From Xiphophorus maculatus (taxonomy: Eukaryota > Chordata > Actinopteri > Cyprinodontiformes > Poeciliidae): a DNA stretch of 64,000 nt. This document shows positions 5,301 to 64,000 of the stretch, piece by piece. Each line of letters opens with the position of its first letter. Position 1 is the stretch's first letter. The notes beneath the pieces were generated by a model. It did not search any database, was not told the DNA's origin, and saw only the letters and a list, made by a program, of their open reading frames with translations. A program made the translations under genes and the position numbers. The stretch spans positions 2,632,534 to 2,696,533 of the forward strand of contig NC_036464.1 in NCBI RefSeq assembly GCF_002775205.1. The letters run 5' to 3'.

Positions 5301-7510
5301 GCAAGTTTTATAATCCATTGTAATCCTTTCATTTATATTGTCCAAATGTTTATTTTTTTCTTCTGTATTAATGTTAGGTGTTTTAATATTTTCATTTGAG
5401 TTGCTATTATGCATTTATAAGATTTGATGCATGCTAACATTATTATTTTGTATAGATCGGGTTGGAGAACTGGAGCACATGCTACGTGCTAATGCTAATA
5501 TCTCCCGATTGACAGGCTGAATAAACAGAGAGCCTCCAAACCCAGACTCGGTGTTTTATGGTTTGTCCTATAAACACACAACGCAGAACTCGACCGGTCA
5601 CACTTGGCAGCGTAAGGGATTTGTCTGGTGTGAAAAACAAATAAATCTGGATCATGATTATCCACCAGCCATCCTCAGAAAGCGCAGAGAGTACACCGAG
5701 GTTCGGAGGGTCCTGAAAGAGAACGGGGTTCCGTTTCAGACACTCTTCCCTGCGAGGCTGCGAGTGAAACATAAAGAAGGGTCCAGAACCTACGACACCA
5801 TTGAGGAAACCACCGAGGACATGGCTAAAAGGGGCTACAAAGTTAAAGTCATCAGATCTCCAGCTTCTCTGAAGGAGCAGATTGAGCGGCTGTCCTGGAG
5901 CAGAAAGGAGGGGAGGAAACAGAAAGGCTCCTCCGGTTCTACAAGAGGAGAAAATTACAAAGAGAGGCTCCGGGCTTTCAGAAGAACATCTCCACCTGCG
6001 ACCTGAAGGATCCATCATTTTCCCTCCCTGGTTTTTCCTCTCAGAGATAAGTGTATAAAGGGCTGTTTTAAGAATGATGGGACTTTAAAAAAAAAAAGGT
6101 TTGTTTGGGGTTCTCTCTTATTTGGGCTGCTGCCACCTGTAAGGGCCCTCCTTAAAGATATGGGAGGTTTTTCCCTTCTGGGCTGTTTTCAAGCGGCCCA
6201 ACAGGGTCTAGTCAACAGACCCCTGCTTTGGATGTTGAACATGTTCTGTTTTTTCATGGTTCCTGTTTACATGTTTGTTTCTGGTTCACTTGTTTACATT
6301 CTGTTTATACTAGTTCTAGTGAGTGGTGGGGGATCTTCAGGGTCATCTGTGACATGGCGGAGAAAATTACACAAAGGGTGAGGACACAGTTAAAGGTGGT
6401 TTCTTTCAATATAAATGGCATAAATAATCCAATTAAGAGATGGAGAGTTTTATCTAAACTCAGAAAAGAGAAAGTTCACATAGCGATGCTTCAGGAATCC
6501 CATCTAGATGACTCTGAACATGCCAAACTGAACAAGATGGGGTTTAAATCTGTAAATTTTTCTTCCCACAGCTCCAGGAAGCGAAGAGGGGTTGCGATTT
6601 TAATATCTAGCTCCTTGTATTATGAACATGTTGCAGAACATAAAGACAGATAATCCGTTACTCGACGGTGAGTAGATAATAGGGCGTTATTTTCGCTCTG
6701 CTCCGCCAGTTAGCATTAGCATTAACTCTGATCCATCTACAATCAGTAGCCCACATCAGTTTAGTCTACTTATTAATTACTCACACTGTTGCAGCCGAAT
6801 TAAAGACCACACCTTTAATATTTAAGGGTTTACCTTTCAACTTTAGATTTGATTATTTTTTCCATGATTTCTTTATTGGTGTTGCATTCCATGTTGGTGC
6901 AGCAATGAAATTTGGTACCTAATATGATTTAGTTTGTAGCTACTTTGATCAATCACATTTGTAAGTTGATTGATTTGATTCAATATTGGTTGTTTGTAAC
7001 GACTGCTAATTATATTATTTAGGCAATTTTGAACTTGAATTATGAAGTGCACTTTTTTAAAAAAGGATTTAAATTTTTCTTTTTATCTTCTCCTTTCTTT
7101 TTTATTTTTTCTATGAAGTTGTTAAAATATAGCAAGTACGTATTCAATTGTTTTCTTGTCTCTCCCATTTAGTTTATATAAATATAATGTTTATACATGA
7201 ACTTAATGTGTGTTATCTGGCCTTTTAGGTCAGGTTTTTATTCCCCTTTGCATTGACTCATTTGATGACGGAAGATGGCGAGCTACCCACCCACCATCTG
7301 GTGGTAGGAAAATGGAACTACACTTTCCCTACAAGAAACGAACTAAACTCTGAGTATTGAAAAGGGAAAATAATTATTTTCTATTTGTTCTTGGATCTTT
7401 TGTGGACTCTATTACGTTTGAAGTATCACTGATTATTATTATAATTGTTTTTTGTTGGTTTGTTGTTTTCCTCTTCTGTTTTTTTGGAAATTTATTGTTT
7501 TGTTGTTTTG

Positions 7511-7542
<32 letters not shown>

Positions 7543-10500
7543 GCCACTGCAATAAATAGCAATATTAACAAACTTTACTTTTTTGTATCAGTTGTATTAA
7601 TTATTCACCCCACTCATGACTCCGTGCCGTACCTACTTCTGATTATACAAACTGGTTAACACTACACCTCGCAGTCAGATCTGCTCAGTTGAGAAAAGCG
7701 CTACATACAGGACATTTACATTCTGGAGAAGTTCTTTTTCTGTTCAAGGTCGAAGGGACTCATTCTTCAGGATCTGGTCTAAATGGAGAAACTATGTAAA
7801 ATCAGTAATTCCTGTGGACTAAATATGTTTATCACATGCAAATATTGTTGTGCAGTGTATTGTACCCTGGCTTAGGATTATGGCAAAATTATGCTCTTGA
7901 TTGTGTTTTTTCCCCCCAACATAAGAAAAATCAGATCAGACCCTCCTCTACCCCCCACTCACTCTTCTGTTATGGATGTTTGGTTACTGTAAAAAAAAAA
8001 AAATACCCTGAATTGGCTTATGTTATTCCTTCTTATACATCCACTGTGTTGGAAATTGAATTGTACAATGTAATTGGAACCTGCCTTTCCAAATAAAAGA
8101 TTAAATAAATAAAAAAGAAAACTGGTTTCTCCAGCAGTGAGAACATTTTACCTGAGAGTTTCCAGGTTGCAGTTTGGACTCTCCAGTCCAGCAGAAAGAA
8201 ACTTCACTCCTGAATCCTGCAGGTTGTTGTTACTCAGGTCCAGTTCTCTGATACTGGAGGACTGGGAGCTGAGAACTGAGGACAGAACTTCACAGCTTCT
8301 CCCTGAGATGTTACAGCCACTCAGTCTGAGGAGACAGGGAGAAAAATCTGGTGTTAACCAATTCATCATCTATCATGCAACAGATTAGACAAACAGATAA
8401 ATGCTGTTGTGAAATCCAGGTTCTTCCATCACAAATTACCAAGCTGAAGTTATATCTTACAACAAAATGTGTTGAAAAGTGATTTGTGCTGTTATTAGCT
8501 CTTGGTAGGATTACTGTAATGCCTTGTATGCTGCCTTAAATAAATCATCTCTGTATTGCCAACATGCAGCACCTGGTCTTTTAACAGGTAATAGAAAACA
8601 TGAAAATCTATCTCCAGTTCTGGCTTCTCTCCATTGGCCTCCTGGTGGTTTTAGGATTGAGTTGTGTGCAGCCTGTAAATGTCTGGCGTGACCAGCGGAT
8701 GGCCAGGGCCGTAAAGTGGGGGGCCAATGGCCCGCCTGGGCCCCCCTGTTCCGGTGCCTATATCCATCAATATTCCTTAGTTCTTGATTCAAGCAGAGTT
8801 TGACATTCTTCTATAAAGCCAGTTTACAGATTATGTTTCTATTTTATTTTAGCTTGTTCTTAAAACATTTTTATGTGATTTTGCTTTATTGTTTAGTTTA
8901 TTTAACTTTATAGAACTGTAAGTCATTTTGGTAAATGCCTGTCATTTTTATGTGTGACTTAAAAACATTAATCCAATAAATGAAATGGAGATACAAAATA
9001 AATAAGTGGTTCTTAATAAGGTTCAGAAAAAAGAAGTTGACACATCTGTTATAGAAATGACATCTGCATCATATCTGATAGCAGCTAATGGACAGAAAAC
9101 TGGTTTCTCCAGCATTGAGAACATTTTACCTGAGAGTTTCCAGGATGCAGTTTGGACTCTCCAGTCCAGCAGAAAGAAACTTCACTCCTGAATCCTGCAG
9201 GTTGTTGTTACTCAGGTCCAGTTCTCTGATACTGGAGGACTGGGAGCTGAGAACTGAGGACAGAACTTCACAGCTTCTCTCTGAGATGTTACAGCCACTC
9301 AGTCTGAGGAGACAGGGAGAAAAATCTGGTGTTAACCAATTCATCATCTATCATGCAACAGATTAGACAAACAGATAAATGCTGTTGTGAAATCCAGGTT
9401 CTTCCATCACAAATTACCAAGCTGAAGTTATATCTTACAACAAAATGTGTTGAAAAGTGATTTGTGCTGTTATTAGCTCTTGGTAGGATTACTGTAATGC
9501 CTTGTATGCTGCCTTAAATAAATCATCTCTGTATTGCCAACATGCAGCACCTGGTCTTTTAACAGGTAATAGAAAACATGAAAATCTATCTCCAGTTCTG
9601 GCTTCTCTCCATTGGCTTCCTGTTTGTTGTAGGATTGACTTCAAGATTTTATTGTTTACTTTTAAAGTGATGAAAGTCCCATTATACCTCTGTGATTTCT
9701 ATAACATGCACATTGTACTAAGAGTAATTTGTTCAGCCAACCAGTTTGTCTAAGATGATCCTAGATCCAAAATGAAATTCAGAGGTGATCGAGTTTTTCA
9801 ATTTGTGCCCCTAAACTTTGGAATAGTTTACATTTTCATTTATAAACTGTTTGGACATTTAAATCTTTGTCCAACACCCGTCAGCAGCAGCACCAGATTC
9901 ATTTTTGAGGTGGAGGGTCATGGGGTGTTTGTCTCCTCTGTTACACACTTTGAATGTCAGGCATTTGTTCAATTGATATGATGGCTCCTGTCAATCAGTT
10001 CAGTGGGTTTGTTGCATTTTGTCCCTTAATAAACAGTAAACATCTCTAACCTGGAGGAAACATTTTGGGTCTACCATGTGCTGCGGTCTGGCTGATCTGA
10101 TGATTGTTTGCTATTAAATGCGCTGCGGTCATAGAGATTTGGTGGAAAATAATCAGGAATAAATGTTAAGTTGTCAGTGGGGAGGAAGATGCAGAAGGCA
10201 GCTTTACACAGAGCATTTAGATGGTGGAATGGACTTTATTCTATTTTCCAAACTGGAGTCTGGAAAAATGTAAAAGAGGATAAATGTCTGCAGCCGACCT
10301 GAGAACAGCTGAATACAGATCGACGGTATTAAAACATCGAGTTTGGATGAAGGTTTTGTCATCATTACATCATTGATGTGAACGCACCGCACACATGGTA
10401 AAAACCTCTGGCAGGATCTAAACAACCAATCTTACAACCACGGGAGGATTCAAACTCCTCGTTCATTCTTAGCTTACAGAAAAAGCGCTGTTAAGGAAAA

Positions 10501-13500
10501 ATGATTATTTTTAGTGCGTAATACAGTTAATCTTACGACATGTGTAAAAGGTATATTCAACACTCTTATTTGGAACAGCTTTGTGTTGAGCATTTGGGAT
10601 TCAGCAGATGAGCAGGCATTCAGACAGGCAGGGGCCTCCCTGCTGTGAGGCCAAACCACGGAGCCATAAAATTAGCATTTTCCTGTAGGGCAATAAATTG
10701 AGTTTGGGAGAGAGCGACTTTAGATTTCACAGGTATCTGTGAGATTTTATCTCAGGTCGTTCTGTACTCAGAATGACCGTGGGAGCCACGGGGGTTCAGG
10801 GCCAGCGATCCGCTCTGTTGTTTTGCCAGAGACCAGATGGCCCTTTGATCTTTGCCGTAAATTAGGGGGAGTTCCAAGTTTCTCTGAGTGCTTAAGGGAG
10901 TTTCCAGTTGGTCAACAAGAGGAACGCCTTGAGTGCATAAATTAAATAGAAAAACACCTCCTTACTATAAGATTACGTGTCAGGAGAAAAAATTCAGAGA
11001 GCGGCCAACATTTTGCCTTTTTTATATCGGCTCTCTCCAAAGACGCGTCTTTGCTTTTTTTGTTCGTCTTTGTTTGGTGTTTGTCTGTCTTTGTTTGTAT
11101 AAGGTAAACAATGTATATCTCTGTTCCTCTGCAGCTTTGTTGATTGATTCATGCGTTGCTTTGTATGGAATTAAACTCTGTGATCTGTGACATCAACACG
11201 CTTTGTTGTTGTTTCACTTTAGCACACGCCGCCCGCTGAGGAACCCGGAAGATTGGGGAAGAGAGAGCCAAACATTTTGTCCAAAATTAACATTAAATTA
11301 TTTCTTCCTTTAACAATTGGGGGCTCGCCGGTACTGGAATCTTGGCGGGTGGCAGTTTCTCCCCGATCGATCCGCTCGGCTCGGTGCGGTAAGACACTTT
11401 TTAATTACTCCTTTGTTGTCTGCAGCGCCGTGTGCTCGGAACGCGGTGTAGGGGGTGCGGGGGGGCCTGGATTGTTGTAAGTGTGTGCAGCTATGCGGAG
11501 TTTCGAAGCTGCAGGGGAAGATAGATTTGTTCCTAAAAGAGTCTGTTGTTTAGAAATTGGAATAAATACACAGTATAGGGGATCGTGGCTGATCCAGACA
11601 GAGGGGTTTGCGCTAACTCTGCCGTAAATGCTGGGGTTCTTATTTATTTTCTTTCCCCTGAGGATTCATGACTGTGCCTCTTTAAAAGCAATTTGGGAAG
11701 TGTGTATCAAAGGTAGTTTGGGCTTGAATCAGCCCGGAGACTGACTCATCTCCAGCGGACTTATAATTAGGTAGAGTTGTATCACTCAGAGGACTAAGTA
11801 GAGTTGTATCACTCAGAGGACTAAGTTTGCAAGTTGGAAATTAATGCATTTTTTTTTAGCCGGCACCATAGTTTAATTTTTATTTTTTCCCCCTCTGTCT
11901 TTTACGTTTGTCTGAAACCGTGTTTGTGTTCTCTGTATTTCTCTGTGTGTGGTGATTTGTGAGCTTGCTGCTGTGGAGTGTGAGGTGTGAAGCTGCGAAG
12001 CTGTGTGTGTGCTGATTGCTCTGGCGGAACGCTGTGTTTGAAAAGCGCTGTTTGTGTGGATTTGAGTTGCTTTGCTGCGTTTTATTGTAAAGTTATTATG
12101 GACACTGAGTTGCAGAACATGTTATAAGCTATTTTTATGGTCGGGGTTCGTAGAAGAGTCTTAAAGGGGATGAGAAGTTGATGTGTCAGATGGAGCCAGG
12201 AAACTTACAGTACCTGACTAAGGAAAAGTACGGTTTAGAAGGCGTGTCGAAAGTAGAATAAAGACGAAACGTGGTGTTTTAGTTTTAAAATAAGGGTTAA
12301 GTGAAACTGGTACCAGAAAACAGAAAATTATTGGTTGTTGTTAGATTCTAACATAAGTTTGAGATGTCTTTTTTAAACGTGCATGGTATTTAAAACAGGT
12401 TCCTGAAGACTAGAGTTTAAAATTAATTAAATTGAAACATGAAAAAATGTTAATAAAACATTGGAAAATTCCTGAAGCTTCAGTAAAATTTGATAAAATT
12501 ACAGTAAAATTTGATAGAATAATGACGACAGACTGAAAATTGGGGACTGATGAAATTTTGACTGACTATAAACCTGGCCAGATGTTTTGTGTTTTGTGTT
12601 TTTGTTTGTGTTACAATTCATGTTGGTGTGAAAGACTGTGTGATTGGAGATAAAATATCACTGGGTATTTTATGTCATATAAATACAACGAGAATGTAAA
12701 CAGCACCTCTGTCAGTGGATGCCATAGGCAAGAATTTCTCACTTGGGACACCAACTAGAAGTAGAAATTACCCTACAGAGTATTTTTTAGTGCTGTCTCG
12801 TGGTGCAAAATTTCCAGTTTTTAGAACACCCTATGTGTTGAACTGGACTAAATTATTCAAATTAGGCAATAACAGCAGTTACTGTGACCTGCAGTGTAAA
12901 GATTGGAAGGTTATTGAAAGATAGAATCCTGATAACATAAAACATCTGAACAAATTGAAAGTATAAATTATGGGTTCTCAGGTTAAATGAATTAATAGAT
13001 GACTAAATGAAAATAAAGTGAATAAACAAATAGTTAAATACATGACTGATTAGGTAGAGAAATAAATAACATAAAAACTGCATATAGAATTGAGAACTAA
13101 AATAGTAGATAAACATGTTAATTCTTCCTTCTAGGCTGAGAAGGTAGTTGTAAATATAGAATAAAATACAATGAGCTACAATGGGACTTTTTAATGAGTT
13201 CAGGATACAGAAAAAACAGAAAGGATCTTTAGAGACACAGGCTCTAACTGTAAGAGGAATCGCTCAGATGACAACAAACTGCAGTATGCAACTGATTCTA
13301 GATAGTTTCACAATCAGTCTTTTTAAACTGACCAAAACTTTAAGATAGTTAAAATATTATTAAATCTATAGGACTTATTGATAATTAAGACAGGATAAAA
13401 TAGAAGTAACTCTCTTGTTGAATAGAAATTGATTACATATAGAAAAATTTGCTACAATTTACAAGATTTGTTGTTGAAGGATAACATTAAGTTAGAAATA

Positions 13501-16500
13501 ACTTATTGGTTAATGAAAGAGGATCAGGTGGAACTATTGTAGAGAATAATGAAGCCCAGGGAGGAGTTGCAGCCCCCCACTTGCAGCAGCTCAGCAGGAC
13601 AGAACAAGAAGCTGTAATGCAAATCATTCCCTCCAAGAGGTGAAGGAAGGTTTTATGGTAGGGTTAAAGATTTGTTTTGTGATCTGACAATGGAGATTGC
13701 TCAGACTAGTGTAGTGACTTTAAAATATAGATGTGAAATCTAAAAGTAGAAAGGATTTAATTAATTTTTTCCTAAGGAACATAGAGATTGGCTGTTTAAA
13801 TCTTGGGGTTTTGTTTGGCACTGTAGATTATATGAAGTTGTAGAGAGTCATTATCATTACATAAGGCAGGATTTTGATGTAGTTTGGTTTCCTACACTTC
13901 AGTGAAACATTTTCTTTTTAGTGTAGATAGTTTAAGCAAGCACATACATAGTGACCAACGAAATAATGGGGAATATGTTGAATGTAAGTTTTTAGCATCA
14001 GAACACTGAGTCTTAATTGGTAAACATGCTTTGTCAAACACTAGTGTAAATTCTTGAGAAGTTTGTAAAATGAATTATTTGAAAATCATAAGAGTAAAGT
14101 GAAATACGGTATTTTACAACTGTAACGTGAAGTGTTTTGGGAAAATAGAGTCATCTTGAAGGTTTCATCATGCCAAAACAAATTGTTCTGTTGTTTTGAA
14201 AAGTTTACCTTTTGGGAAAAAAGGCAGCATTGAGTATGGGTAGAATTTCTCAGGTAAAATAATAAACCTGTTTCATCAACATCTTTATTTAACATAGTAG
14301 AAATTGTGATACATTAGCAGGTAATGTATCATCAGGGGGAAGAATATGTTATGGGTTTATTTTTTATATTGCTTAATTAGATTACTGAAATGTATATTAC
14401 TTAAACAAATTTTTGAAGAACATGTCTGATCTGTGCTACACATAAAAGTGAAAGGAAAGATATTGTCTGGTGAAATATGTGCTTATTTTGAATGGATTTC
14501 AGTTGTTCTCCATTGAAAGATGTTCTGACAATGGGCTAAAGTATTTTGAAACCAATAGATAACAAATTTATAGTGATTAATGAAGCATATTTTGGTTAAT
14601 TAACTTGGGAAATAATTATAGAAATTAAAAATATTATTGCGTTGGCCATTTTCAGAGCATTGATTTAATGGATTAAGAATGTTTTAAGAAATGTTTTGAA
14701 GAATCTGTTAATTGATTAAGTTATCACTAATCAGTAGAAGTACTCAGGTGGGTCTGAGATGTGGGATTATACTGATTTTTCTAAACTTGATTTTTGTTTT
14801 GATTTACATCCATTTAAAATGACTTTGAATAAAACTTTACATTCTACTACCAGTAAAAGGCCTGGAGACAAAATTGGTATATTTTGAAAATGTCTGGATT
14901 TGTTAAGTTATACATTGACATTATAATTTCTCCAGGTCTAACTCTTTTGAATTTTTGTTTAAGGAACGCATGTTGAATGTTTTAGACAAAAACAACCAGT
15001 AAGATCTAGTTTGTTCTATAAAAGTAATTTAAACTGGACTGTTTAAGTCACACTGATATTCATTGTTTTGATGGTAAATGTAAGCTATACAACTACATTT
15101 TTAAGCTTTTGTTATTATTTTGTTTTTGTTTAATCCTATATTACAAGATTAGTTTCAAATGAAGATCTGCATATGTTTGACATTCAGGGAAAATGCTAAT
15201 TTAGAACCTTGTCTTTTGAAGCAGGTGATTACAGGGTTTTGGTGTTTTCCATCTGTTGGCGGTGGAGTATATAAAATAATGGAAACGTAAATTGAATGGA
15301 TCACATCCACCATTTAATGAGCAGAACTGGACAAGTAGGAGATAAGGCTTCACGTGATGAGTTGCTCATGGCTTTCTACACACAGACTGGTCTGGAGTTC
15401 TGAGCTCCAGGCCTGACTCTGGACTCTGCAACAAAAGCTGTTGTCATTCGAGGATGAGTGTGACTGCTTGGAGAAGCGGTTTCACATTTATTTCGACGAT
15501 AGCGGCCACAGAGCCACGAGCGTTGGAGAATTCACTCGGACACACAGTGAATTGAAGATATTTGTGTTGAGTACACAAATGAATGATGCCTTTGGAAAAT
15601 CTGATCTCTGTTTTGTCATTACAGTTTTGCAGCTGTTTTCCTGGTGCCCTGTGGATGTGGTCTCATTCAAAGTCTGCGTTCTTTGATAAAAGATTAAAGT
15701 AATTCCCCTGATGGAAAATGACAAGCCAAATTTGCTTTCTTTAAGTTAAGCCATTGTTTGATTATGCTGACACCGATGAAGATGACACTAGAGAATGTTG
15801 TACTTATGTTTCTGATGCTACTGAAACTCATGTTGATGATGCAATGTCTGTTTTAACAACCTGTGATAGGTCATGTCACAGGATGAAGTTTTCCTCACGA
15901 GGAGATTTCACCTTCTCCTTAAAACTCGCTGTTTAATTGGCATAATAATCCAATTTTCAGTGAGCAACGAACGCTCTGATGGAAACCTGAGGTTTCTAAC
16001 AGAGGAGGATCAGGCTACAAGAGGATCGACATTAACTTTTTTACTGCGTGTTTTCGTTCTTTGCGAACTCTGAAAGGACTTTCGTTTCTTTTTTTGCGCG
16101 CATTTTTTGAACATTTCCTGACGAAGACTTTGTCAAGAAAACTGGCATGGGGTGTGAGATCTTTCCGGGTGCACGCAGAAAAGGTGCATATAGGCCTGAG
16201 AGAAAATAAGCAATCTTGAATTTGATTAAAAGTTAATTAAGTTGAATGGGTTTGAATACAATTGGTAACATGAGTATAAGTAATCACTCAATAGTATAAG
16301 TAATCACTTAGTAACTTTCAGCAAAGTATTTCTGAATAATGATCTGTAATGATTTAACTATGTAAGGATTATGGTTGATGATTTATAATAAGTGAAAGAT
16401 GTGATTAATTGTTAATGAATATCAAAGTTGTGATGATTTGAAATCAATGTTCAAATGGGTTTAACAGGTTGAATGTGTTTAATAAGTTGTAATAGATAAT

Positions 16501-19500
16501 ATAGAGAGTTAAAGAAAAGAGAGGGATGCAGTATAGTAAAACCAAGGTCCCGCACACACATATGACAAAGACAAAAGCAGAAGTTAAATAAAAAAATAGT
16601 AAAACAAACCCCCCATACACACATATGGATAAAAAGAGAATAAAAGAAGCCTTAAAAGAGGAAGCAGCCGTTCTTTGTCCGTGGCGTCTGAGACAAGCAT
16701 CACGGAGGAGCAGAATAAGCAAAAGGACCACACCCAAGAGCCACGGGAAGCTGAAACTTCGCGCCGCCAAGAAGGGACAAGATCCAACTGCCACAGCCTG
16801 GGTTCCTGATTTGACCGTCGGTCCTGACTCCACTCAACGATCTCAAAACTATGCAACAGACTTGGAGAAAAGACCAAGATCCCTGAAGGAGAAAGAGCCG
16901 GGTTTTTCAAAGGAGTTGGACCCATTCTGCTTGCATCTATTCTGAGGAGGATTTTTCCACACAAGGATAAAAGACTCTGACCAAGGACTCTGGACGTCAC
17001 TGTTGCCAAAGATCTATTATCACCTGGGCGTGAGTTGAATCTGCTCCCTGAAATTCCATCTTAGAAGTAGCGGCGTAGGTTAGGGAAAAGAGGCAGAGTA
17101 GTATGATTATACATGCTGATTTTATTACACTGCTTTTGAATTATATACAATTGATTATTGATTTGTATGTCGCATATCCCTGCTTGAGCTTGCTTAATAA
17201 ATTTATATTATAAAATTCTAATGAGGTTGGTGGACATTGGAATTAATTGAGACATTTAATCATTTTTCAGTTCTTTTCATTGAGGAAAAACTAATGTACA
17301 TGATTCTAGTAAATAGGAGGCTTCATAATGTCCTTTAGTGAGTGTAAATAATGACCCTGGGACTTATATCCAAGTCACTAAATTTAATCTAGTCGGTTCC
17401 AAGAGCGAGTCATATTTTAGAAAGCGAGCTACTGTTAACAGGAGCGGTTATTGGAATTATGCAGCTGCGAGGGCTACTCAGCTGATTGTTTCTTAACTGC
17501 AAAGGGTCGTAGCTTCTGGATTGGAGGTAGTTAGAGCTAGACGAATCGCTTTCGCCACCAGTTTAAATAGACTATCTCATATGGATCTCTCTTAGGGTAA
17601 TACCCAGGTCTTAGAGATTTTCCGGACCTGTTAGACAGAGAACTGGTCAGTAGTCGGCCCAAGAAAGTTGTGAGGAAAGGGCGGGGCTTTCCTTATACAA
17701 TAATAACAGACAACTTCATATTTTGTTTTTTGAGAGACTATCGACGGACATTGAAAAAAAAAAGAAAAACAGAAAAAGGACAAGCTGCAGATTGTAATTT
17801 TGTGTGTTTCTCATTTTTTGACAGATTGTAATTTTGTGATGAGTGTTGTCTTTTAAGTTGCAGAGCATTTCTTACTAATTTTTATATGTATATCCTTGTC
17901 TTATTTTTTTACATTTTATACTTTGGGTTTTTGTTTGTCCTGTGTTTTTGGTTGTATTGTGATAATTGTGTTTTATGATTTTATATTTTTGAAATGATAA
18001 GTATTTCTTACCCTTGGGTTTGGTTTAAAAAGGGGGACTGTTATATAATTAGGCTACGTCACTCTTTTGGTTTTTTATTTTTTAGTTTTTTAGTTTTTTT
18101 TTTCTTTTTATTAGTTTAATACATAGTTTTTTGGTTCTGTATTAGAAGGCTTAATCAATTTTTTATGAGGTCTTTTATTAAGACCTCAAAAGGGGGACTG
18201 TTAAGGAAAAATGATTATTTTTTAGTGCGTAATACAGTTAATCTTATGACATGTGTAAAAGGTATATTCAACACTCTTATTTGGAACAGCTTTGTGTTGA
18301 GCATTTGGGATTCAGCAGATGAGCAGGCATTCAGACAGGCAGGGGCCTCCCTGCTGCGAGGCCAAACCACGGAGCCATAAAATTAGCATTTTCCTGTAGG
18401 GCAATAAATTGAGTTTGGGAGAGAGCGACTTTAGATTTCACAGGTATCTGTGAGATTTTATCTCAGGTCGTTCTGTACTCAGAATGACCGTGGGAGCCAC
18501 GGGGGTTCAGGGCCAGCGATCCGCTCTGTTGTTTTGCCAGAGACCAGATGGCCCTTTGATCTTTGCCGTAAATTAGGGGGAGTTCCAAGTTTCTCTGAGT
18601 GCTTAAGGGAGTTTCCAGTTGGTCAACAAGAGGAACGCCTTGAGTGCATAAATTAAATAGAAAAACACCTCCTTACTATAAGATTACGTGTCAGGAGAAA
18701 AAATTCAGAGAGCGGCCAACATTTTGCCTTTTTTACATCGGCTCTCTCCAAAGACGCGTCTTTGCTTTTTTTGTTCGTCTTTGTTTTGTGTTTGTCTGTC
18801 TTTCCCTTGTCTGTCTTTGTTTGTATAAGGTAAACAATGTATATCTCTGTTCCTCTGCAGCTTTGTTGATTGATTCATGCATTGCTTTGTATGGAATTAA
18901 ACTCTGTGATCTGTGACGTCAACACGCTTTATTGTTGTTTCACTTTAGAACACGCCGCCCGCTGAGGAACCCGGAAGATTGGGGAAGAGAGAGCCAAACG
19001 TTTTGTCCAAAATTAACATTAAATTATTTCTTCCTTTAACAGCGCCAAGCTGCCAAATTTACAAAAGTAAACTGACCAATAACATTTAGGCTGTGAGCAG
19101 CTTCATGGACTCACACAGACTCGGTATGTACAAGATGTTCTGACACAACAGATCTTTTGTTCTCCTAAATGTTAATAGTAAAGAGGGTTAGGTGATAAAA
19201 AAAAATTAAAAATTATTTTTTTCTGTTTCACTTAAAGGAAAATCTAAGGTACACAGTGTGTACAGCTGCGAGTGCCCTGTGCTCAGCTACTTGTTACAAG
19301 TCCAAAATAAGCACAATACAGCTGTTGGGGAAATTGCATATATATTTATCAGACATTTGTTTAAATATTATTTATTCTGAATTGCTTTAACTATGTTTCT
19401 GAGTGTGTTTTAAGGAGGCCTCACTGAAATGGTAAATGGACTGAACTTACAGTATATAGCGCTTTGCCAGTCATTTTGATCACTCAAAGCACTTTACACT

Positions 19501-25500: not shown

Positions 25501-28500
25501 ATGTCTGACTGGACCAGCGGACGGCCAGGGCCGTAAAGTGGGGGGCCAATGGCCCGCCTGGGCCCCCCTGTTCCGGTGCCTATATCCATCAATATTCCTT
25601 AGCTCTTGATTCATACCAGAGTTTGACATTCTTCTATAAAGCCAGTTTACAGATTATGTTTCTATTTTGTTTAACCTTGTTTATAAAACATTTTTATGTG
25701 ATTTTGCTTTATTGTTTAGTTTATTTTACTTTATAGAACTGTAAGTCATTTTGATAAATGCCTGTCATTTTTATGTGTGACTTAAAAACATTAATCCAAT
25801 AAATGAAATGGAGATACAAAATAAATAAGTGGTTCTTAATAAGGTTCAGAAAAAAGAAGTTGACACATCTGTTATTGAAATGACATCTGCATCATATCTG
25901 ATAGCAGCTAATGGACAGAAAACTGGTTTCTCCAGCATTGAGAACATTTTACCTGAGAGTTTCCAGGATGCAGTTTGGACTCTCCAGTCCAGCAGAAAGA
26001 AACTTCACTCCTGAATCCTGCAGGTTGTTGTTACTCAGGTCCAGTTCTCTGATACTGGAGGACTGGGAGCTGAGAACTGAGGACAGAACTTCACAGCTTC
26101 TCTCTGAGATGTTACAGCCACTCAGTCTGAGGAGACAGGGAGAAAAATCTGGTGTTAACCAATTCATCATCTATCATGCAACAGATTAGACAAACAGATA
26201 AATGCTGTTGTGAAATCCAGTTTCTTCCATCACAAATTACCAAGCTGAAGTTATATCTTACAACAAAATGTGTTGAAAAGTGATTTGTGCTGTTATTAGC
26301 TCTTGGTAGGATTACTGTAATGCCTTGTATGCTGCCTTAAATAAATCATCTCTGTATTGCCAACATGCAGCACCTGGTCTTTTAACAGGTAATAGAAAAC
26401 ATGAAAATCTATCTCCAGTTCTGGCTTCTCTCCATTGGCTTCCTGTTTGTTGTAGGATTGACTTCAAGATTTTATTGTTTACTTTTAAAGTGATGAAAGT
26501 CCCATTATACCTCTGTGATTTCTTTAACATGCACATTGTACAGAGTACTTTGGTCAGCCAACCAGTTTGTCTAAGATGATCCTAGATCCAAAATGAAATT
26601 CAGAGGTGATCGGGTTTTTGCAATTTGTGCCCCTAAACTTTGGAATACTTTACATTTTCATTTATAAACTGTTGGGACATTTAAATCTTTGTCCAACACC
26701 CGTCAGCAGCAGCACCAGATTCATTTTTGAGGTGGGGGGTCATGGGGTGTTTGTCTCCTCTGTTACACACTTTGAATGTCAGGCATTTGTTCAATTGATA
26801 TGATGGCTCCTGTCAATCAGTTCAGTGGGTTTGTTGCATTTTGTCCCTTAATAAACAGTAAACATCTCTAACCTGGAGGAAACATTTTGGGTCTACCATG
26901 TGCTGCGGTCTGGCTGATCTGATGATTGTTTGCTATTAAATGCGCTGCAGTCATAGAGATTTGGTGGAAAATAATCAGGAATAAATGTTAAGTTGTCAGT
27001 GGGGAGGAAGATGCAGAAGGCAGCTTTACACAGACCATTTAGATGGTGGAATGGACTTTATTCTATTTTCCAAACTGGAGTCTGGAAAAATGTAAAAGAG
27101 GATAAATGTCTGCAGCCGACCTGAGAACAGCTGAATACAGATCGACGGTATTAAAACATCGAGTTTGGATGAAGGTTTTGTCATCTTTTTTTTTGGTCCC
27201 CATTTTTTTCTCAGAAGAGTTTTTGCGGCGCTAGTGGCTCATATTTTCTTTGTACAGTAGGCAGACAGGAAGGAGGGTGAGGAGAGGGGGGAAGACATGC
27301 GGCAAAGGTCGTCGGGATCGGGAGTCGAACCCGCGACGTCCGCGTCGAGGACTAAGGCCTCCAAACGTGGGGCGTGCTAACCCCCTGCGCCACCACAGCA
27401 TGCCCCAGGTTTTGTCATCATTACATCATTGATGTGATGTAAAAACCTCTGGCAGGATCCAAACGATCTACTTTACAATGTCACCAGGTGTCAAGAAAAT
27501 CCGAGCTCATCCCACTTCCCCATGCTGGAGATTTTAGTTTAACAGTAATAACAAATAAAGTTATCTTTAAAATGAATCACTCAAGTGACATCAAGGCCCA
27601 ACAGTAGACTTAAGTGTCAATAAAGTTAGTTTAACAGTAATAATAAATAAAGTTATCTTTAAAATGAATCACTCAAGTGACATCAAGGCCCAACAGTAGA
27701 CTTAAGTGTCAATAAAATAAATCTGGTTGTGTGTGTTGTTTTTGTCTCATGCAAACTTTGCTTTAATTCTACTTTTTTCTATCTAATCATAAGAAATCAT
27801 AGTCAGACAGAGAGTCATTAAACAGGGAAAGCAGGTTTCCTGGAATAAGAGGAAGTTTCCAGCCTGCAGATTTATAAAAATAGCTGAGACTATTCCTTAG
27901 TTTAAAGCATGAAAGTTTTAAAGAATGTAATCTAAACATTTTGAGTAATTTCATAAGATTCAAAGTAAAATACTTATATTAATATTGGTTTACTTGTAAT
28001 AATATTTACACGTACACTTGTGAGAACACTTACAAGAAAAACAAGTAACTGTAACTTTAGTATTAAATAATTAGAATCATGTATTATTCTTGGTTTCATT
28101 TTAGAAAACATCTGTAATAACTCACATTAGGATTATAATCAGAGTAATTAATAAGTTATAAAATTATAAATGAATGATAAATCAGAGAAGCTAAAGAAAA
28201 TAAATGTGATAAATGTGATTTTGACATTGAACTTGAAATGGGGTAAAAGGTGTAACTGCAATTAAACATCACTGATATGTTGGAGGTAGATGGTAGGTGA
28301 AAGGTGAAAGGAAGGGAAAAAGGGGAACTATAGGAGAGCAGAGATGATCAGCGCCTTATTTAGAGAAAAGGTGAAAGGCAAGAGACATAGGAGGTTGAGC
28401 AACCCTGAGACATTAGCTCAGACATCAGGAAATGTCTGTAAGACAGTGATGGATATGAGATCATCTGTCTAAGCAGACAGCCAATGAAAACGCACCAAAA

Positions 28501-31500
28501 GGTGGATAAACCCTATAAAAGGTGGGTGCAAAAGAGGAACCTTTTGTTGGATCCTCCGGGCAGCTTCGAGCCAAGATCGAGATGGACAAAGAACTCTGCA
28601 GCTGAAGAAGAGCCGGGGCCACGGAGCCGAAGACTGTCCTTCTCATGGAGACCAACCCGTCTGGCCCACAACATGTGGCTTCGAATCGCACTTCTCTCAT
28701 CGGCTGGGTTCAGACCCCAAAGACAAAGATGAAGAACTGGTGCCTTTTTTCCTGCCAGCATCAAGTCCTGTGTGACCTCACCATCCATGCGGAGAGGAGG
28801 CTCATCAGACCTGCGGAGATCCTGGCCTTCATCGATCGGCGTCTTCCTCCTCCTGCTGCAACACCTTCTTCATCATCAGGCCAGGTCTGGGGTTCGAAAC
28901 GCCAAACTCCGTCCGTCTCTCTCAAAGGTTCCCTTTTTTAGTTCTCAGTGTCAGCAGTAGGGAAAGATAGACTAGATGATTGATTTTACTTATTTGATTA
29001 TTTCTGCTACTGAATTAAGCTGTACTGACCCTTGCAAAAATGCTTTACTAATAAAATATTTAGCATAAAGAAAATCTAAAAGATGTTGTGGACATTCAGT
29101 TAATGAGTCACCTTAAAGTTCTTTGATGGTTGTAAAATAGCTGTGATGTTTGATTCTGGAGAGGAAGAGGTGGAAAATGTTTTTAGGTTGCTGGTAGCCC
29201 AAATTTAAAACGTCATCCTTGGGACTCGCCCGAGTCACTAAAACCTACCTGGTTCAATAACAAATGCAAGTTGTAAAATAGAGAACGAGCGACCGTTAAC
29301 AGGTGTGCTCTGTGAAACTAGTTGGCTGTAGGCTGCTCAGTCTGGCTAATTCACAGGGGGAAGAAGGGTGGGACACCTGGATGTAGGCCGTCAGAAAATC
29401 AGGTGAATCGTTTCTCGAAACCAGTTTAAACAGAGTTTACTTCAGTTCTGGACAGGGTAAATCCCAGCAGATTTAAGAAACTCAATTAACCCGTTAGAAG
29501 GAGAGCTGGTAGCACATCTCCCCTCTCAGAAGAGGAAGTACGAGAGTGAGAGTAGAGACAGAAAGGAGGGGGGGGGTGTTGCGCAACAACACAGGTGACT
29601 CGGAACCATCCAATCACTGAACAGATAAATGTGTGGATGGGCCAAAACGTTCTCCAGCTGAACAGAAACAAAACTGACGTTATTGTTTTTGGACCTAAAG
29701 AGGAATGGTCTAGAGTCACCTGTGAACTGCCGGGGGGTGCCATATATAGTCACATGGCACCTGGCATTCAATCCCTCAATCTTCTCGCGAGAAGCAGAGA
29801 TTCCAAGGCACCAAGCATTCTGCCGGTCATCAGGGACTCATAGAACCGTAGTTACAGTAGTAACTTTCGTTCTATTTCATCCCTACTGACCGCCAGAGGT
29901 GGTGCTTCAAGCACTGGATGACTTATTTCAACAAGGTCACGAGGAATCGGCAACATTCAAGGGACAACCACTACACCACCCACCCTAATGTGATGTAGAG
30001 GTATGCTGCTCCAGGATTCCTGGAAGTGGATGGGGTGCAGCCACATTTACCCTGTAAAACCAAGTAAAGGTACTAGGTGATTTCCAGGAGGCCGCACGGC
30101 ATATAACATCCAACGTCACCCCAGTCATGAAAGCAAACGAAATCGACATGCCCCTTGTAGAGTGGCACTTCACTCCTGCCAGCAGTGGCCGGTCCTGCAA
30201 GGAATAAGCCTTGGAGATCAAATCCACAACCCAGTGTGCAAGTCGCTGCTTAGAAAATGCCTGATCTTTCTGTGAGCCAGTGTAGCAAACAAAAAGGCTA
30301 TTCGTCTTTTGGAAGGATGCCGATATATGCCTCAAGGGCAAGATCAGGGCACAGTGGATCAGAGGGGCATCCGGTGTCAAACCGGGCAAAATGGAGCGGC
30401 TGGGTACTGCCAGCCGCCAGTGACACCTTAGGAATAAATGCTACATCAGGCCACTGTAACACCGCAGCCACCAGGATTCCACCGGCAGCAGGGCTCGGCA
30501 ATCAAGAGAGCCTGCAATTCTCCCACACGCTTTGCGGAAACCATAGCCAAAAGGGACGCCGTCTTCAGTTAGAGCCATTTGAGGTCTGCTGATGCCAGGG
30601 GCTCAAATGGGAGAGACAGAAGAGCCTCCAGCACCAGAGAAAGGTCCCACACCGGTGCCACAGGGCGGCTGGGTGGGTGCAAATGCCGAGGACCCCTCAA
30701 AAACAGTACAACGTCCTTGTCTCGGCCCACTGAACAACCATTCAGCCTGACATGCCAACAGGAAATGGCAGCCACATACAATGGCCCACCTGGGCCCCCC
30801 TGTTCCGGTGCCTATACCCATCACTATTCTTTAGCTCTTGATTCATACCAGAGTTTGGCATTCTTCTATAATGCCAGTTTACAGATTATGTTTCTATTTT
30901 GTTTAACCTTGTTTATAAAACATTTTTATGTGATTTTGCTTTATTGTTTAGTTTATTTTACTTTATAGAACTGTAAGTCACTTTGGTAAATGCCTGTCAT
31001 TTTTATGTGTGACTTAAAAACATTAATCCAATAAATGGAATGGAGATACAAAATAAATAAGTGGTTCTTAATAAGGTTCAGAAAAAAGAAGTTGACACAT
31101 CTGTTATAGAAATGACATCTGCATCATATCTGATAGCAGCTAATGGACAGAAAACTGGTTTCTCCAGCAGTGAGAACATTTTACCTGAGAGTTTCCAGGA
31201 TGCAGTTTGGACTCTCCAGTCCAGCAGAAAGAAACTTCACTCCTGAATCCTGCAGGTTGTTGTTACTCAGGTCCAGTTCTCTGATACTGGAGGACTGGGA
31301 GCTGAGAACTGAGGACAGAACTTCACAGCTTCTCTCTGAGATGTTACAGCCACTCAGTCTGAGGAGACAGGGAGAAAAATCTGGTGTTAACCAATTCATC
31401 ATCTATCATGCAACAGATTAGACAAACAGATAAATGCTGTTGTGAAATCCAGTTTCTTCCATCACAAATTACCAAGCTGAAGTTATATCTTACAACAAAA

Positions 31501-32500
31501 TGTGTTGAAAAGTGATTTGTGCTGTTATTAGCTCTTGGTAGGATTACTGTAATGCCTTGTATGCTGCCTTAAATGAATCATCTCTGTATTGCCAACATGC
31601 AGCACCTGGTCTTTTAACAGGTAATAGAAAACATGAAAATCTATCTCCAGTTCTGGCTTCTCTCCATTGGCTTCCTGTTTGTTGTAGGTTTGACTTCAAG
31701 ATTTTATTGTTTACTTTTAAAGTGATGAAAGTCCCATTATACCTCTGTGATTTCTATAACATGCACATTGCACTAAGAGTAATTTGGTCAGTCAACCAGT
31801 TTGTCTAAGATGATCCTAGATCCAAAATGAAATTCAGAGGTGATCGGGTTTTTGCAATTTGTGCCCCTAAACTTTGGAATAGTTTACATTTTCATTTATA
31901 AACTGTTTGGACATTTAAATCTTTGTCCAACACCCGTCAGCAGCAGCACCAGATTCATTTTTGAGGTGGAGGGTCATGGGGTGTTTGTCTCCTCTGTTAC
32001 ACACTTTGAATGTCAGGCATTTGTTCAATTGATATGATGGCTCCTGTCAATCAGTTCAGTGGGTTTGTTGCATTTTGTCCCTTAATAAACAGTAAACATC
32101 TCTAACCTGGAGGAAACATTTTGGGTCTACCATGTGCTGCGGTCTGGCTGATCTGATGATTGTTTGCTATTAAATGCGCTGCGGTCATAGAGATTTGGTG
32201 GAAAATAATCAGGAATAAATGTTAAGTTGTCAGTGGGGAGGAAGATGCAGAAGGCAGCTTTACACAGAGCATTTAGATGGTGGAATGGACTTTATTCTAT
32301 TTTCCAAACTGGAGTCTGGAAAAATGTAAAAGAGGATAAATGTCTGCAGCCGACCTGAGAACAGCTGAATACAGATCGACGGTATTAAAACATCGAGTTT
32401 GGATGAAGGTTTTGTCATCATTACATCATTAGTGTGAACCACCAGTAGCAAGTTAAACAGTTGTCCATACGGGAAACCGTCAGCTCTTCAGTTCGCCAAA

Positions 32501-32594
<94 letters not shown>

Positions 32595-35500
32595 CTTATA
32601 AACCGGCGACCTGCCAGAACTGCACACACGGTAAAAAGCTCTGGCAGGATCTAAACAACCAATCTTACAACGACGGGAGGATTCAAACTCCTCTTGTTCA
32701 TTTTTAGCTTACAGAAAAAGCGCCAAGCTGCCAAATTTACAAAAGTAAACTGACCAATAACATTTAGGCTTTGTGAGCAGCTCCATGGACTCACATAGAC
32801 TGGCTACGTACAAGATGTTTTGACACAATAGATTGTTTTTCTCCTAAATGTTAATAGTAAAGAGAGTTAGATAATTAAAGAAAGTGTAAAAAAATCTTCT
32901 TTTCTGTTTTACTTAAAGGAAAATCTAAGGTACACAGTGCGTATGTCATGTTTGGATCTAGTTTTTTAACCCACATGCAGAACACCACAGGAGTAAAGGA
33001 ATCAGTAGTATAATGTTTATTGAAAAATAAGATGGATGAGGGTCTATCCAGGGGGCAGGATCACAGAGTCGCTGGCGCACTGAAGGACAACAGATAAAAT
33101 GATGAGTTCAAGGTTGTAGGAAATGTGAGCAACACGGGTAAACAGGAACGGTCTTACTTGTGATGTTGAATAATGACTGCAGGGAGAGAGTAGGCTGTGG
33201 GCTCGGGGTTAGTCTCCTAATTTGCAGGTCCTGGACAGTGATCTGGATTCCAGAGTACGGCTCGATGGAGGTGGTTCCGGATAGCTACGTGGAGGCTGCG
33301 GTGGAGGATGGACAGGTAGGTACAGGCGTAGAGGGAGGCAGAGGAGCGGTCCTACTGCTAACTGGCAGGTCCGGGGTCGGCTTGAGATCCAACTGAGGAG
33401 ATGGAAGTGGGACTCGGGCAACCAGTGGGTATTCACCACGGCGTCATGAGGATGGGTTATCCAGAGGGCCAGAACGAGATCTTTACGAGGAGATCACACA
33501 GCGTCGCTAGGAACACCTGGAAACAGGAAGGCAACAAAGGATTACTCAGAGAAAATTCGCTGGGAGAAGCACAGAGAGTAACTCCGGGTGGGCTCAAGGT
33601 ACCATTACTGGCAAACACTCAGGCGAAGAAGTGCAGTCAGTGCGCTCCTCTTAAACCCCAGGGTGATTAGATGATGACCAACAGGTGCGCTGAACCACAG
33701 GTACGCCCTGCCAGGGAGGCAGCTTCTGGAGCTATCTGGTGGATAAATAACGGAACCACAGACGAACAAAAAGGAAAAGAAAACCCCACAAAAGGAACAA
33801 AAACCCCGATACCTAACAGCGTACAGCTGCAGGAGCCCTGAGCTCAGCAACTTGTTAAAAGTCCAAAATATGCACAATATGCCGAGGATAGATAGATACG
33901 GCAAAAATCATGACTGGTCAAATATTTGGAACATTAAAAAAATAATAATAACATAGATGTCAAATATCCTCAGCAATGCCAGTTTAGAGCAGCAGGACAA
34001 CCTAATGGATCATCATGTTACAGCGCAGCAGCGCCATCTGGAGGCTATGGGTCTAAAACCAAAAGGCAGCACAGATTATAATTGCTGCATGTTCCACAAA
34101 TTGTGCGACAAATGATTGTGTGAGTGGGACAGATAACCAGCCAGACTGCTGACAATATTACACCGTGAAAGAGGTGTACAGAGCCTCGTGCCGGAAGAAA
34201 AACGGCGAGTGACTGAGGATTATTGCGTGTAACAGCAAAAATTGCTTGTAAATTCTAGACATTAACAGGTACCATATAAGTGCAAAAAAAATCCGTGAGG
34301 GACGACAGAGTCCCTGCTCGAAATTCCATGGAAGAGGTGTACGGAGCCTTGTGCCAGAAGGCCGTTGAAAGGCTGTTAACATCATTTTAAGCTGTGTGAT
34401 TGTGAGCGTGACTGGGAATAAAAATACCAATAGGTATTTTGTTCCATATAACACAGTAGGAGTGTAACAGGTAAACCTTTTATGGATGCAAAAGCAAGAA
34501 CCCCCCACTTGATGACTTTGTGTTTCTGTGTTTGATATGATGTTAAGCACTTTGAAATGCCTTGCTGCTGAAATGTGCTATACCAGGGGTTATCAATAGG
34601 TCGATCGCGGAAAGGTTTTGAGTTGATCTCGGCAGCAGGTGACAAACTGAAAGCTGCCAGGATGCTGAGACCAGAACTTCCTCTTCTGGTGCGCTTATCA
34701 AAATATTCACTAAGATCCTAAATGTTTGTAGCTTCATTAAAGAATGGTCATTTTTTAAAAATCAACAAAATGTGTTAAAATTAATATTCTCAGTAATTGT
34801 TTCAACAAGGTGTTGAGCAATTCAGTGAGTTTCCGTTCCATTAACAACAACAAAAAGCGACTCAAAGACCGACTAGCTAATTTAAACTCCTGCTCTGCTA
34901 GTCAATCAACCATCTCTGTGTTCAGGGAAGCGCTGATTAATAATCGAGAAATAAATATCAAGCCTGGAAACTTGATATCGTAACGGACTGAATGTTATGT
35001 TTTTAACGTAATCTTTGCTCGTCTTGCGGAGAGCAGGCGGTTGCCACGGTAACAGGTGTGCTTAACCTACAAAGAGAGAGAGAGAGAGTAAAAAGGTAGG
35101 AGTGGTTTTGAGTTGATCACCTGTTCAGGTTATTTTTGTGACTGAGAAACCAGTAACTTCCAGTGACAGAGTCTCACTGAGGAAGAAACTGCATTAGGTT
35201 TTCTATCACTTTATTATTTCTGCTATAACTAATGTATATTTGCATATGACTTATGTTATATGCGAATATAGCATAAAAACATAATGTTATTCAGATTATA
35301 TTTTATAAGCTTTTTTGGTACATTTGACCATTTTTGTATGATACTGCAAACTTACTTTATATTGTTATCATATAAGTTGCTATTTGTGATCCTATTTGCA
35401 TAGAGTTTAATTTACAATTTTTATGTCTTCGTGTCATGAAGTAGATCTCAGCCTTCTGGTGGGAGAAAAAGTAGATCTTGGTCTCAAAACGTTTGAGCAT

Positions 35501-38500
35501 CACTGTGCTATACAAATAAAATTTGATTGAAAATTTAATTGATTGAATATTTTTGCATTAAAAACAAAATGACAAACATCATGAATAAACTTTAATGTGC
35601 TTGTTATTTAACAGACAAAAATGAATTTCAACATCCAACAGAGACCTGAAAACCATCAGTAACAATCGATATTTATGGCTCCTGATGGCTGATTGGCTTT
35701 TGGAAGAGCAACGAGGTAAAAAAAACAAACAAATTCATGTGATTATTTTTCGACCTGATCCAAAATGATCTGCTCTGGTCAAAGTGTGGTGAGCATTTGG
35801 TCTGGACCATAAACGGACATGGACCCAATGTTTTTATTTCATCCCAACGCCATCAGAAAGAAAATATCGCCACAGTTCTACAAATGGTGACAAATACATA
35901 AATCTCATTTAATTTTTAGGCAGAATTGGTTCAGACCTGGACCGGATCAGAGTCTAAGTCTTTTTTCAGATGTCAGAGCGGTTCATGATCCCAACCCGAC
36001 CCGAAGCTGCTGTATGTGTGTAAACCTTTGGGTGATTGTTCTGATCTGGAGTCTTAGATTAGATTTGGTCCAGATCTCAGTGCTGCAGGTTTTATCTGTC
36101 TGCATAGAAACACAGAGATGTCAGTACCGGATTGTCAGAGTTGTGTTCAGCCTGTAAATGTCTGACTGGACCAGCGGACAGGCAGGGCCGTAAAGTGGGG
36201 GGCCAATGGCCCGCCTGGGCCCCCCTGTTCCGGCGCCTACACCCATCACTATTCTTTAGCTCTTGATTCATACCAGAGTTTGACATTCTTCTATAAAGCC
36301 AGTTTACAGATTATGTTTCTATTTTATTTTACCTTGTTCTTAAAACATTTTTATGTGACTTTGCTTTATTGTTTAGTTTATTTTACTTTATAGAACTGTA
36401 AGTCATTTTGGTAAATGCCTGTCATTTTTATGTGTGACTTAAAAACATTAATCCAATAAATGAAATGGAGATACAAAATAAATAAGTGGTTCTTAATAAG
36501 GTTCAGAAAAAAGAAGTTGACACATCTGTTACAGAAATAACATCTGCATCATATCTGATAGCAGCTAATGGACAGAAAACTGGTTTCTCCAGCAGTGAGA
36601 ACATTTTACCTGAGAGTTTCCAGGTTGCAGTTTGGACTCTCCAGTCCAGCAGAAAGAAACTTCACTCCTGAATCCTGCAGGTTGTTGTTACTCAGGTCCA
36701 GTTCTCTGATACTGGAGGACTGGGAGCTGAGAACTGAGGACAGAACTTCACAGCTTCTCTCTGAGAGGTTACAGCCACTCAGTCTGAGGAGACAGAAAAA
36801 GCTGATGTTGAAAAATTCATCAGAAAATGTTTCTTTCTTTCCAGTATCTAATGTTCTCCTTGGAAATATTGATGGGGCTGTCTTATTTCAAACATATTTA
36901 TGTTTACTTTTTTTGTAAACTGTTACATTATTTAAAAAAAACCTTAAACAATATGAATCAATATTTAACTCATTCTTATCAGATTTCTCTCTTTCAGCAA
37001 TAAATTCAGCAACAATCTGTGTCCTTACAGAGCTTTGTTGGAGGCTTTAACCACTGGCAGCAGCCCCAGAAGAGCCTCCTCTGAAGCTGAGTATTTCTTC
37101 AGATCAAACTCATCCAGATCTTCTCCTGATGACACTAAGATGAAGAGCAGAGCTGACAACTGAGCAAGAGACAATTTATCTCTGGAGAGACGTCCTGAAC
37201 TCAGAGACTGTTTGATTTCGTCCACTAGAGAACGATCATTCAGTTCATTCAGACAGTGGAACAGATTGATGCTTTTCTCTGCAGACACATTCTCATTGAT
37301 CTTCTCCTTGATGTACTGAACTGCTTTCTGATTGGTCTGTGAGCTACTTCCTGTCTGTGTAAACAGACCTTGTAGGAGTCTCTGATTGGTCTGCAGTGAA
37401 AGTCCCAGTAGAAAACGGAGCAGCAGGTCCAGGTGTCCATTTGAACTCTGTAAGGCCCGGTCAACAGCATTCTGGTGTAGAGATATTATTTTTGATTTGT
37501 GAAAGAATGTAGGGATAGCTGATTGTTTTCCTTCCATCAGGTTGACACCAGAGTTGGTTAAGGTCAGATGAACATGAAGAGCAGCCAGAAACTCCTGAAC
37601 ACTCAGATGGATGAAGCAGAACACCTTGTCCTGGTACAGCCCTCTCTCCTCTCTAAAGATCTGTGTGAACACTCCTGAGTACACTGAGGCTGCTCTGATA
37701 TCGATGCCACAATCTGTCAGGTCTGATTCATAGAAGATCAGGTTTCCTTTCTGCAGCTGATCAAAAGCCAATTTTCCCAGAGACTCAATCATCTTCCTGC
37801 TCTCTGGACTCCAGTGTTGATCTGTTTCAGCTCCTTCATCATACTTGTCCTTCTTCACTTTGGTCTGAACCACCAGGAAGTGGATGTACATCTCAGTCAG
37901 GGTGCTAGGCAGCTTTCCTCCCTCTCTGGTCTCCATCACATCCTTCAGAACTGTAGCAGTGATCCAGCAGAAGACTGGGATGTGGCACATGATGTGGAGG
38001 CTTCGTGATGTCTTCATGTGGGAGATGATCCTGCTGGCCTGCTGCTCATCTTTGAATCTCTTCCTGAAGTACTCCTCCTTCTGTGGTTCATTGAACCCTC
38101 TGACCTCTGTTACCATGCCAACACACTGAGGAGGGATCTGATTGGCTGCTGCAGGTCGTGTGGTTATCCAGAGGAGAGCAGAGGGAAGCAGTTTGCCCCT
38201 GATGAGGTTTGTCAGCAGAACATCCACTGAGCTGGACTCTGTAGCATCAGTCAGGATCTCCTTGTTGTGGAAGTCCAGAGGAAGTCGACTCTCATCCAGG
38301 CCATCAAAGATGAACAGAACCTGAAAGTGCTCAAAGCTGCAGATTTCTTTGGTTTCGGTAAAGAATCGATGAATCAGTTCCACCAAGCTGAACTTTTTCT
38401 CTTTCAGCACATTCAGCTCTCTGAAAGTGAATGGAAATATGAACTGGATGTTCTGGTGGGCTTTGTCTTCAGCCCAGTCCAGAGTGAACTTCTGTGTTAA

Positions 38501-52223: not shown

Positions 52224-64000
<11,777 letters not shown>

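Follow-up and report, generated by a model that had tools for sequence, protein, structure and literature searches.

The subject of this analysis is an NLR receptor gene of the teleost NLRC3-like type, located on the minus strand of a 64,000-nucleotide (nt) window of the Xiphophorus maculatus genome (NC_036464.1, positions 2,632,534 to 2,696,533; all coordinates below are those of the window). The gene has a FISNA-NACHT exon followed by leucine-rich repeat (LRR) exons, five of which are almost identical. Judging from the comparison of these copies and their introns, we consider it probable that this is an NLR-C/NLRC3-like gene in which the first of two types of LRR exon was multiplied within a tandem unit of ~3.1 kb, and that recombination keeps the copies alike. 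The near-identity of the exons would then reflect recombination between the units and not simply a recent lengthening of the array.

The LRR exons and their introns

There are 6 LRR exons in the window, each of them separate and single and all located 3' of the NACHT exon. Exons A (36610-36783, two LRRs), B (31185-31358), C (25953-26126), D (9130-9303) and E (8152-8325) lie on the minus strand and measure 174 nt each, with CAG acceptors, GTAAAA donors and phase-2 borders, and their frame is open once they are spliced. An initial annotation, made from the sequence alone, had listed these five exons at matching positions, with a length of 174 nt and phase-2 borders, and had described them as frame-neutral pairs of LRRs made by duplication of exon and intron together, and all of this is borne out. 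Five LRR exons do lie within 8117-36800, as it had stated; exon F (738-911, minus strand, 174 nt, AG/GT borders, phase 2) and a copy of the LRR intron without an exon, G (44646-46357, minus strand), are found outside that range. Exon F is of the conserved last-LRR type. It shows 58.6% amino acid identity with exon A (tblastn) and shares 83-93% identity with the last-type unit of each of the relatives P0010, P0013, P0046 and P0207, which were used as queries. The LRR exons match Pfam LRR_6 and LRR_1, and in the comparison of the LRR part with known structures ribonuclease inhibitor scored best (4per, E 4e-82), followed by NLRP proteins.

Only 3 of the 174 columns vary among exons A to E. Exons B, C and D show no difference at all (0/174) and hence encode one and the same 58 residues. 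All three changes are nonsynonymous and affect residues 7, 9 and 54 of the 58. The positions on the concave face of an LRR can be placed with the LxxLxLxx motif. By this motif the three variable residues are predicted to fall outside the concave face, and the exon copies would contribute no variation at the predicted concave-face positions.

The A-B intron (31359-36609) and the C-D intron (9304-25952), both read on the minus strand, were compared by self-BLAST and block alignment and are homologous end to end apart from insertions. Minus the insertions each of them measures ~2.8-3.0 kb, and the unit including the exon ~3.1 kb. The unit pieces are 31359-32440, 32619-32943, 33819-34159 and 35546-36609 in the A-B intron, and 9304-10488, 19042-19318, 24383-24514 and 24739-25952 in the C-D intron. 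The B-C intron retains just both ends of the unit. The self-alignment that the initial annotation had suggested as a check shows the exon flanks repeated at 95-98% over 0.25-1.7 kb, well above chance. The proposal of one module with the same intron is correct for the A-B and C-D introns, which match over their full length, but not for D and E, which share only a partial tandem duplication of 978 nt. Here 8116-8663 matches 9094-9641 at 98.5%, and 7686-8115, the expected left part of the E duplicate, shows no real similarity. Exon E arose from D by this duplication, the left part of which was lost later.

The position of the insertions varies from copy to copy, and the sister copy is continuous at the same site. 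Their absence from sister copies and the short repeats flanking several of them indicate that the transposons entered after the unit had been copied. The C-D intron contains an element of the long terminal repeat (LTR) type (10489-19041, plus strand) with TG...CA ends and a 4-bp target duplication (GCGC); its LTRs differ at 9/828 positions, and B and G have the empty site. In the A-B intron we found an 875-nt insertion (32944-33818) with TG...CA ends, flanked on both sides by GCGTA, and a 1386-nt insertion (34160-35545), flanked on both sides by AATATT. Copy G, which self-BLAST and block alignment place within one of the gene's own 5' introns and thus ahead of the NACHT exon, holds a 344-nt insertion (45057-45400) flanked by GACCT.

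Two further stretches are noted here. The C-D intron also has a 5.1-kb insertion (19319-24382) with two direct repeats of ~107 nt (19323-19429 and 23871-23975), in which the open reading frames (ORFs) 22101-22733 and 23298-23720 look retroviral-envelope-like by eye only and have no Pfam match. At 4270-4364 there are 95 nt which are 77% identical to the 3' flank of exon C. Alignment of the surroundings gave no exon. The stretch may be what is left of a lost unit, or both sequences may belong to a dispersed repeat.

Mosaic divergence between the units

The divergence between copies B and D depends on the part of the unit that is compared. We observed 0/174 differences in the exon, 7/997 in blocks b0 and b1 of the 5' intron, 3/84 in block b2 and 17/405 in the 3' flank. 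Beyond a (GT)n tract (block b3 and the part of b4 that is not A-rich) the rate was 11/199 (5.5%), and the jump from 7/997 to 11/199 is significant (Fisher p = 2e-5). The comparison of B with G over the same stretches served as a control for the local mutation rate and was even, with 3/411 (b1) against 1/203 (p = 1.0). In the outer part B is closer to G (1/203) than to D (11/199; p = 0.003). This contrast between B-D and B-G omits block b2 and the A-rich stretch of b4, and four LTR-end columns were dropped from b4. As B-G remains even while B-D jumps, D is B-like near the exon and distant farther out.

A similar picture emerged for the A-B and C-D introns, whose divergence across ten blocks is heterogeneous (chi2 77, p = 6e-13), also when the A-rich block b4 is left out (chi2 34, p = 3e-5). 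In the 3' flank four sites show the pattern AB|CD (30817, 30824, 30830 and 31170) and four the pattern AD|BC (30901, 30905, 30914 and 30915), with none showing AC|BD. The patterns AB|CD and AD|BC are incompatible with one another. The mosaic divergence, the heterogeneity between blocks and the conflicting sites together indicate that the units have recombined. Gene conversion and unequal crossing-over both fit the data.

Identity and layout of the gene

The large exon at 37029-38817 (minus strand; donor CT|GTAAGG) matches FISNA (PF14484), NACHT (PF05729), NOD2_WH and NLRC4_HD2, all above the Pfam cut-offs. These matches to FISNA, NACHT, winged helix and HD2 confirm that the gene had rightly been annotated as an NLR receptor, and the presence of FISNA and NACHT together on one large exon is as expected of the NLR-C family. 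Jointly with the N-terminal exon before FISNA (38961-39186, minus strand, AG/GT borders) this exon yields residues 4-675 of P0004 with 0 mismatches. P0004 is the Xiphophorus maculatus 'NLR family CARD domain-containing protein 3-like' of 675 amino acids (aa). When the N-terminal exon, the NACHT exon and exons A to F are spliced, the frame is open over 1019 codons.

Matches of relatives (tblastn) at 47796-47966 and 39187-39267 suggest that the gene extends over at least 47 kb. The former, on the minus strand, is probably a 5' exon region of the N-terminal repeat type belonging to the same gene (best match 64.9% over 57 aa at E 1e-15; the 400-nt bin has 35 matches). No B30.2 exon was found within the window in searches with B30.2-carrying relatives; the window stops 737 nt past exon F. 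By its domains and layout the locus appears to be a teleost NLR-C/NLRC3-like receptor, and genes of this kind are already known from bony fish.

Comparison with related proteins

In three similarity searches 7978, 7976 and 7972 candidates were scored, and the best 120 of each were listed, which gave 345 distinct proteins. They were picked by similarity to the query and hence do not represent fish NLRs at large. Of the 345 listed relatives, 171 had one or more pairs of LRR units that are at least 93% alike, namely 33/120 of the first set, 60/120 of the second and 78/105 of those new in the third. Before redundancy was removed, 174 relatives had at least three first-type units; afterwards 161 were left, which with the window made 162 sets. 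Among these the array in the window ranks second, with a mean within-gene identity of 0.976. Residues I25 and F42, present in each of exons A to E, were seen in 0.2% and 2.4%, respectively, of the 976 first-type units of the other listed relatives.

Two of the listed proteins resemble the gene in the window. The gene of a Xiphophorus relative ('X.') has seven near-identical first-type and two last-type LRR units. However, its units are without I25 and F42, and its within-gene identity (0.951) is lower than its best between-gene identity (0.961). P0207, an uncharacterized protein of 1171 aa from Chaetodon auriga, has five first-type units and one last-type unit followed by B30.2, which is the layout expected here, although its units are more diverse than those in the window and it comes from another species.

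Weighing the explanations

Several observations weigh against an array of LRR exons kept alike by recombination. The exons do not differ significantly in variability from their 5' intron (3/174 vs 16/587, p = 0.59) and are only weakly less variable than the 3' flank (3/174 vs 24/406, p = 0.03). As all changes in the exons are moreover nonsynonymous, purifying selection on them is unsupported. In the A-rich stretch of b4 the copies are 10-14% apart (B-D 16/116, B-G 11/110, D-G 13/111), and with this stretch included we obtained 28/319 for B-D and 12/317 for B-G, so that the control is uneven too (3/411 vs 12/317, p = 0.006). The conflicting sites of the 3' flank are clustered and maybe stem from few events, and all P values given here are uncorrected. 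Concerted evolution does not hold for the family in general: no more than 54 of the 162 sets had a within-gene identity above their best between-gene identity, and strong homogenisation belongs to some genes and not to the family as a whole. P0004 ends at the NACHT exon and has no LRR. Furthermore, the 12-residue run shared by exons A to E occurs in 0/345 listed relatives, none of which carries this array, and thus the full-LRR product of the gene is absent among the listed proteins. The initial annotation is not refuted in the way that it had itself named, by transcripts that never include exons A to D, yet with an LRR-less public protein such as P0004 this case is not remote.

The last points lead to the possibility that the gene works as an LRR-less NACHT protein and that the exon array is unused or seldom used. 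The donor after the NACHT exon (37020-37035, CT|GTAAG) reads Leu-stop when unspliced. P0004 stops with ...VVKASNKAL at this unspliced donor (CTG TAA), 6/120 listed relatives of the first set end in the same manner, every one of them from Xiphophorus, and the available excerpts of PMC10648357 report several NLRC3 homologues without LRRs in black rockfish. We nevertheless regard this explanation as unlikely: exons A to E and F all retain splice sites, phase and frame, 112/120 listed relatives of the first set have one or more LRR units, neither AATAAA nor ATTAAA occurs in 246 nt of inter-exon sequence that we inspected, and P0004 may be a mere prediction. The ending at the unspliced donor could represent an LRR-less isoform or a prediction habit. 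Somewhat less credible still is a simple recent serial duplication without later exchange, with the copies being alike since they are young. It would agree with the identity of exons B, C and D, with the small distances within b0 and b1 of the 5' intron (0.7-1.4%, and 0% for B-D in b1) and with the D/E pair, which at 98.5% resembles a plain tandem duplication. What disfavours it is that the B-D divergence rises to 5.5% on the 5' side and 4.2% on the 3' side of the alike stretch, that the site patterns of the 3' flank conflict, and that the LTRs of D's own inserted element are closer to each other (9/828) than the distal flank of D is to B (11/199; p = 4e-4). The claim of the initial annotation that the receptor was lengthened in recent time is, on the same grounds, not supported by the exon identity, as B and D are alike in the exon (0/174) and the adjoining intron (7/997) but not just beyond (11/199), and D holds the LTR element (9/828). 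Dating by the LTR element was tried as well; its LTR divergence is indistinguishable from the near-exon divergence of B and D (p = 0.45) and gives no order of homogenisation and insertion. Finally, near-identical and repeat-rich copies are a setting prone to assembly error, and the array might be an artefact of false duplication or misjoined haplotypes. Every copy, however, is set apart by substitutions, flanks and insertions of its own, the last of these bordered by short repeats, and there are no N runs within the window, which makes such an artefact very improbable. A collapse may hide extra copies.

LINE-like pieces and exchange junctions

The initial annotation had placed an L2-like piece of a long interspersed nuclear element (LINE) beside each of the five exons and had regarded these pieces as the substrate for unequal exchange. 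We found the reverse transcriptase motif beside B, C, D and E (at 31542, 26310, 9487 and 8509, respectively) but none near exon A in 35500-37000. We take the piece to be L2-like from its appearance only; Pfam gave no match for a 62-aa stretch of it at E <= 1. Unequal exchange mediated by LINEs is unsupported. The D/E junction, the sole readable one, shows microhomology of ~6 nt and is flanked by the LINE-like piece on just one side, without LINE-LINE homology, and the switch point between B and D adjoins the (GT)n tract outside the LINE-like piece. A LINE-type endonuclease ORF was detected at 43707-44408 (Pfam). The E-F intron contains ORFs resembling a broken L1-type LINE (4676-6653), with an endonuclease match in 6156-6650 only.

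Other features of the window

A 151-aa minus-strand ORF at 29985-30440 resembles a DIRS-type tyrosine recombinase by eye only and has no Pfam match. Parts of an adjacent WD40 gene of the EML type lie on the minus strand at 54806-63891. Long satellite arrays of the CATC type and the AACC type occupy 59657-61439 and 62475-62888; they contain several open frames with no coding sign and show a strong strand asymmetry, with a GC skew of -0.53 over 60001-64000.

Discussion

In the mechanism we propose, duplication of exon and intron as a tandem unit of ~3.1 kb would multiply the first-type LRR exon, and each frame-neutral exon would add two repeats, that is one more turn pair, to the horseshoe-shaped solenoid. 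Spliced in order, the exons would form an LRR solenoid of at least 12 repeats between the NACHT/HD2 part and the C-terminus, which lies outside the window and is likely B30.2. Homologous recombination between the units, either gene conversion or unequal exchange, would keep the exons alike. Because the copies are alike, the length and curvature of the solenoid would change and not its specificity, and it is most likely that the extra repeats alter length rather than specificity. The longer recognition surface assumed by the initial annotation is therefore not upheld: three exons encode the same 58 residues, the variable residues lie off the predicted concave face, and the available excerpts of Howe et al. 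(2016, PMC4852459) call specific recognition by the LRRs of NLR-B30.2 proteins unlikely.

According to the same excerpts the LRRs of zebrafish NLR-B30.2 genes lie on single exons, with the last LRR fixed and the other type present 0-6 times. LRRs of this first type number 0-6 in groups 1, 2a and 3, and groups 2b and 4 have more than 20 LRRs of another type; gene conversion shapes the family. The gene in the window resembles the NLR-C/NLR-B30.2 genes described there in its large FISNA-NACHT exon, its single-exon LRRs and its variable first-type LRRs with a single conserved last LRR after them, and the types of NACHT, LRR and last LRR all agree. It differs from them, as far as they are described there, in the exon-plus-intron unit, the transposons within it and the mosaic seen here. 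For human NLRs the excerpts of Hoss et al. (2019, PMC6642158) describe LRR exons as frame-preserving modules, 171 bp in NLRP3, which can be included or skipped. The exons in the window are likewise frame-preserving LRR modules, whereas a near-identical intragenic array is not described in those excerpts. A 2024 survey of zebrafish (PMC11192531), again in its available part, reports that whole NLRs vary in copy number and suggests for them tandem duplication by unequal crossing-over, possibly with the help of transposons. We found no comparable exon-plus-intron LRR array in the parts of the literature available, which does not prove its absence.

A variable number of LRRs in fish NLRs is already in print, and what is unusual here is the readable anatomy. 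As a speculative extension, to which we assign little probability, the gene may encode a length-variable receptor. Recombination would then produce alleles with differing numbers of LRR exons in platyfish populations, the first donor (CT|GTAAG), whose phase gives Leu-stop, would provide a built-in LRR-less isoform, and the receptor would be tuned by the length of the solenoid and by its removal rather than by diversity of sequence.

Fish NLRs are many and their LRR number varies, yet the gain of LRR exons is seldom visible. In the present gene the order of events can be read from the introns, from the inserted transposons, which supply clocks of their own as well as empty sites, and from the exonless remnant. 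Near-identical exons need not be young, which bears on the dating of such arrays. The locus offers a concrete place for long-read tests of variation in LRR number in an animal immune receptor.

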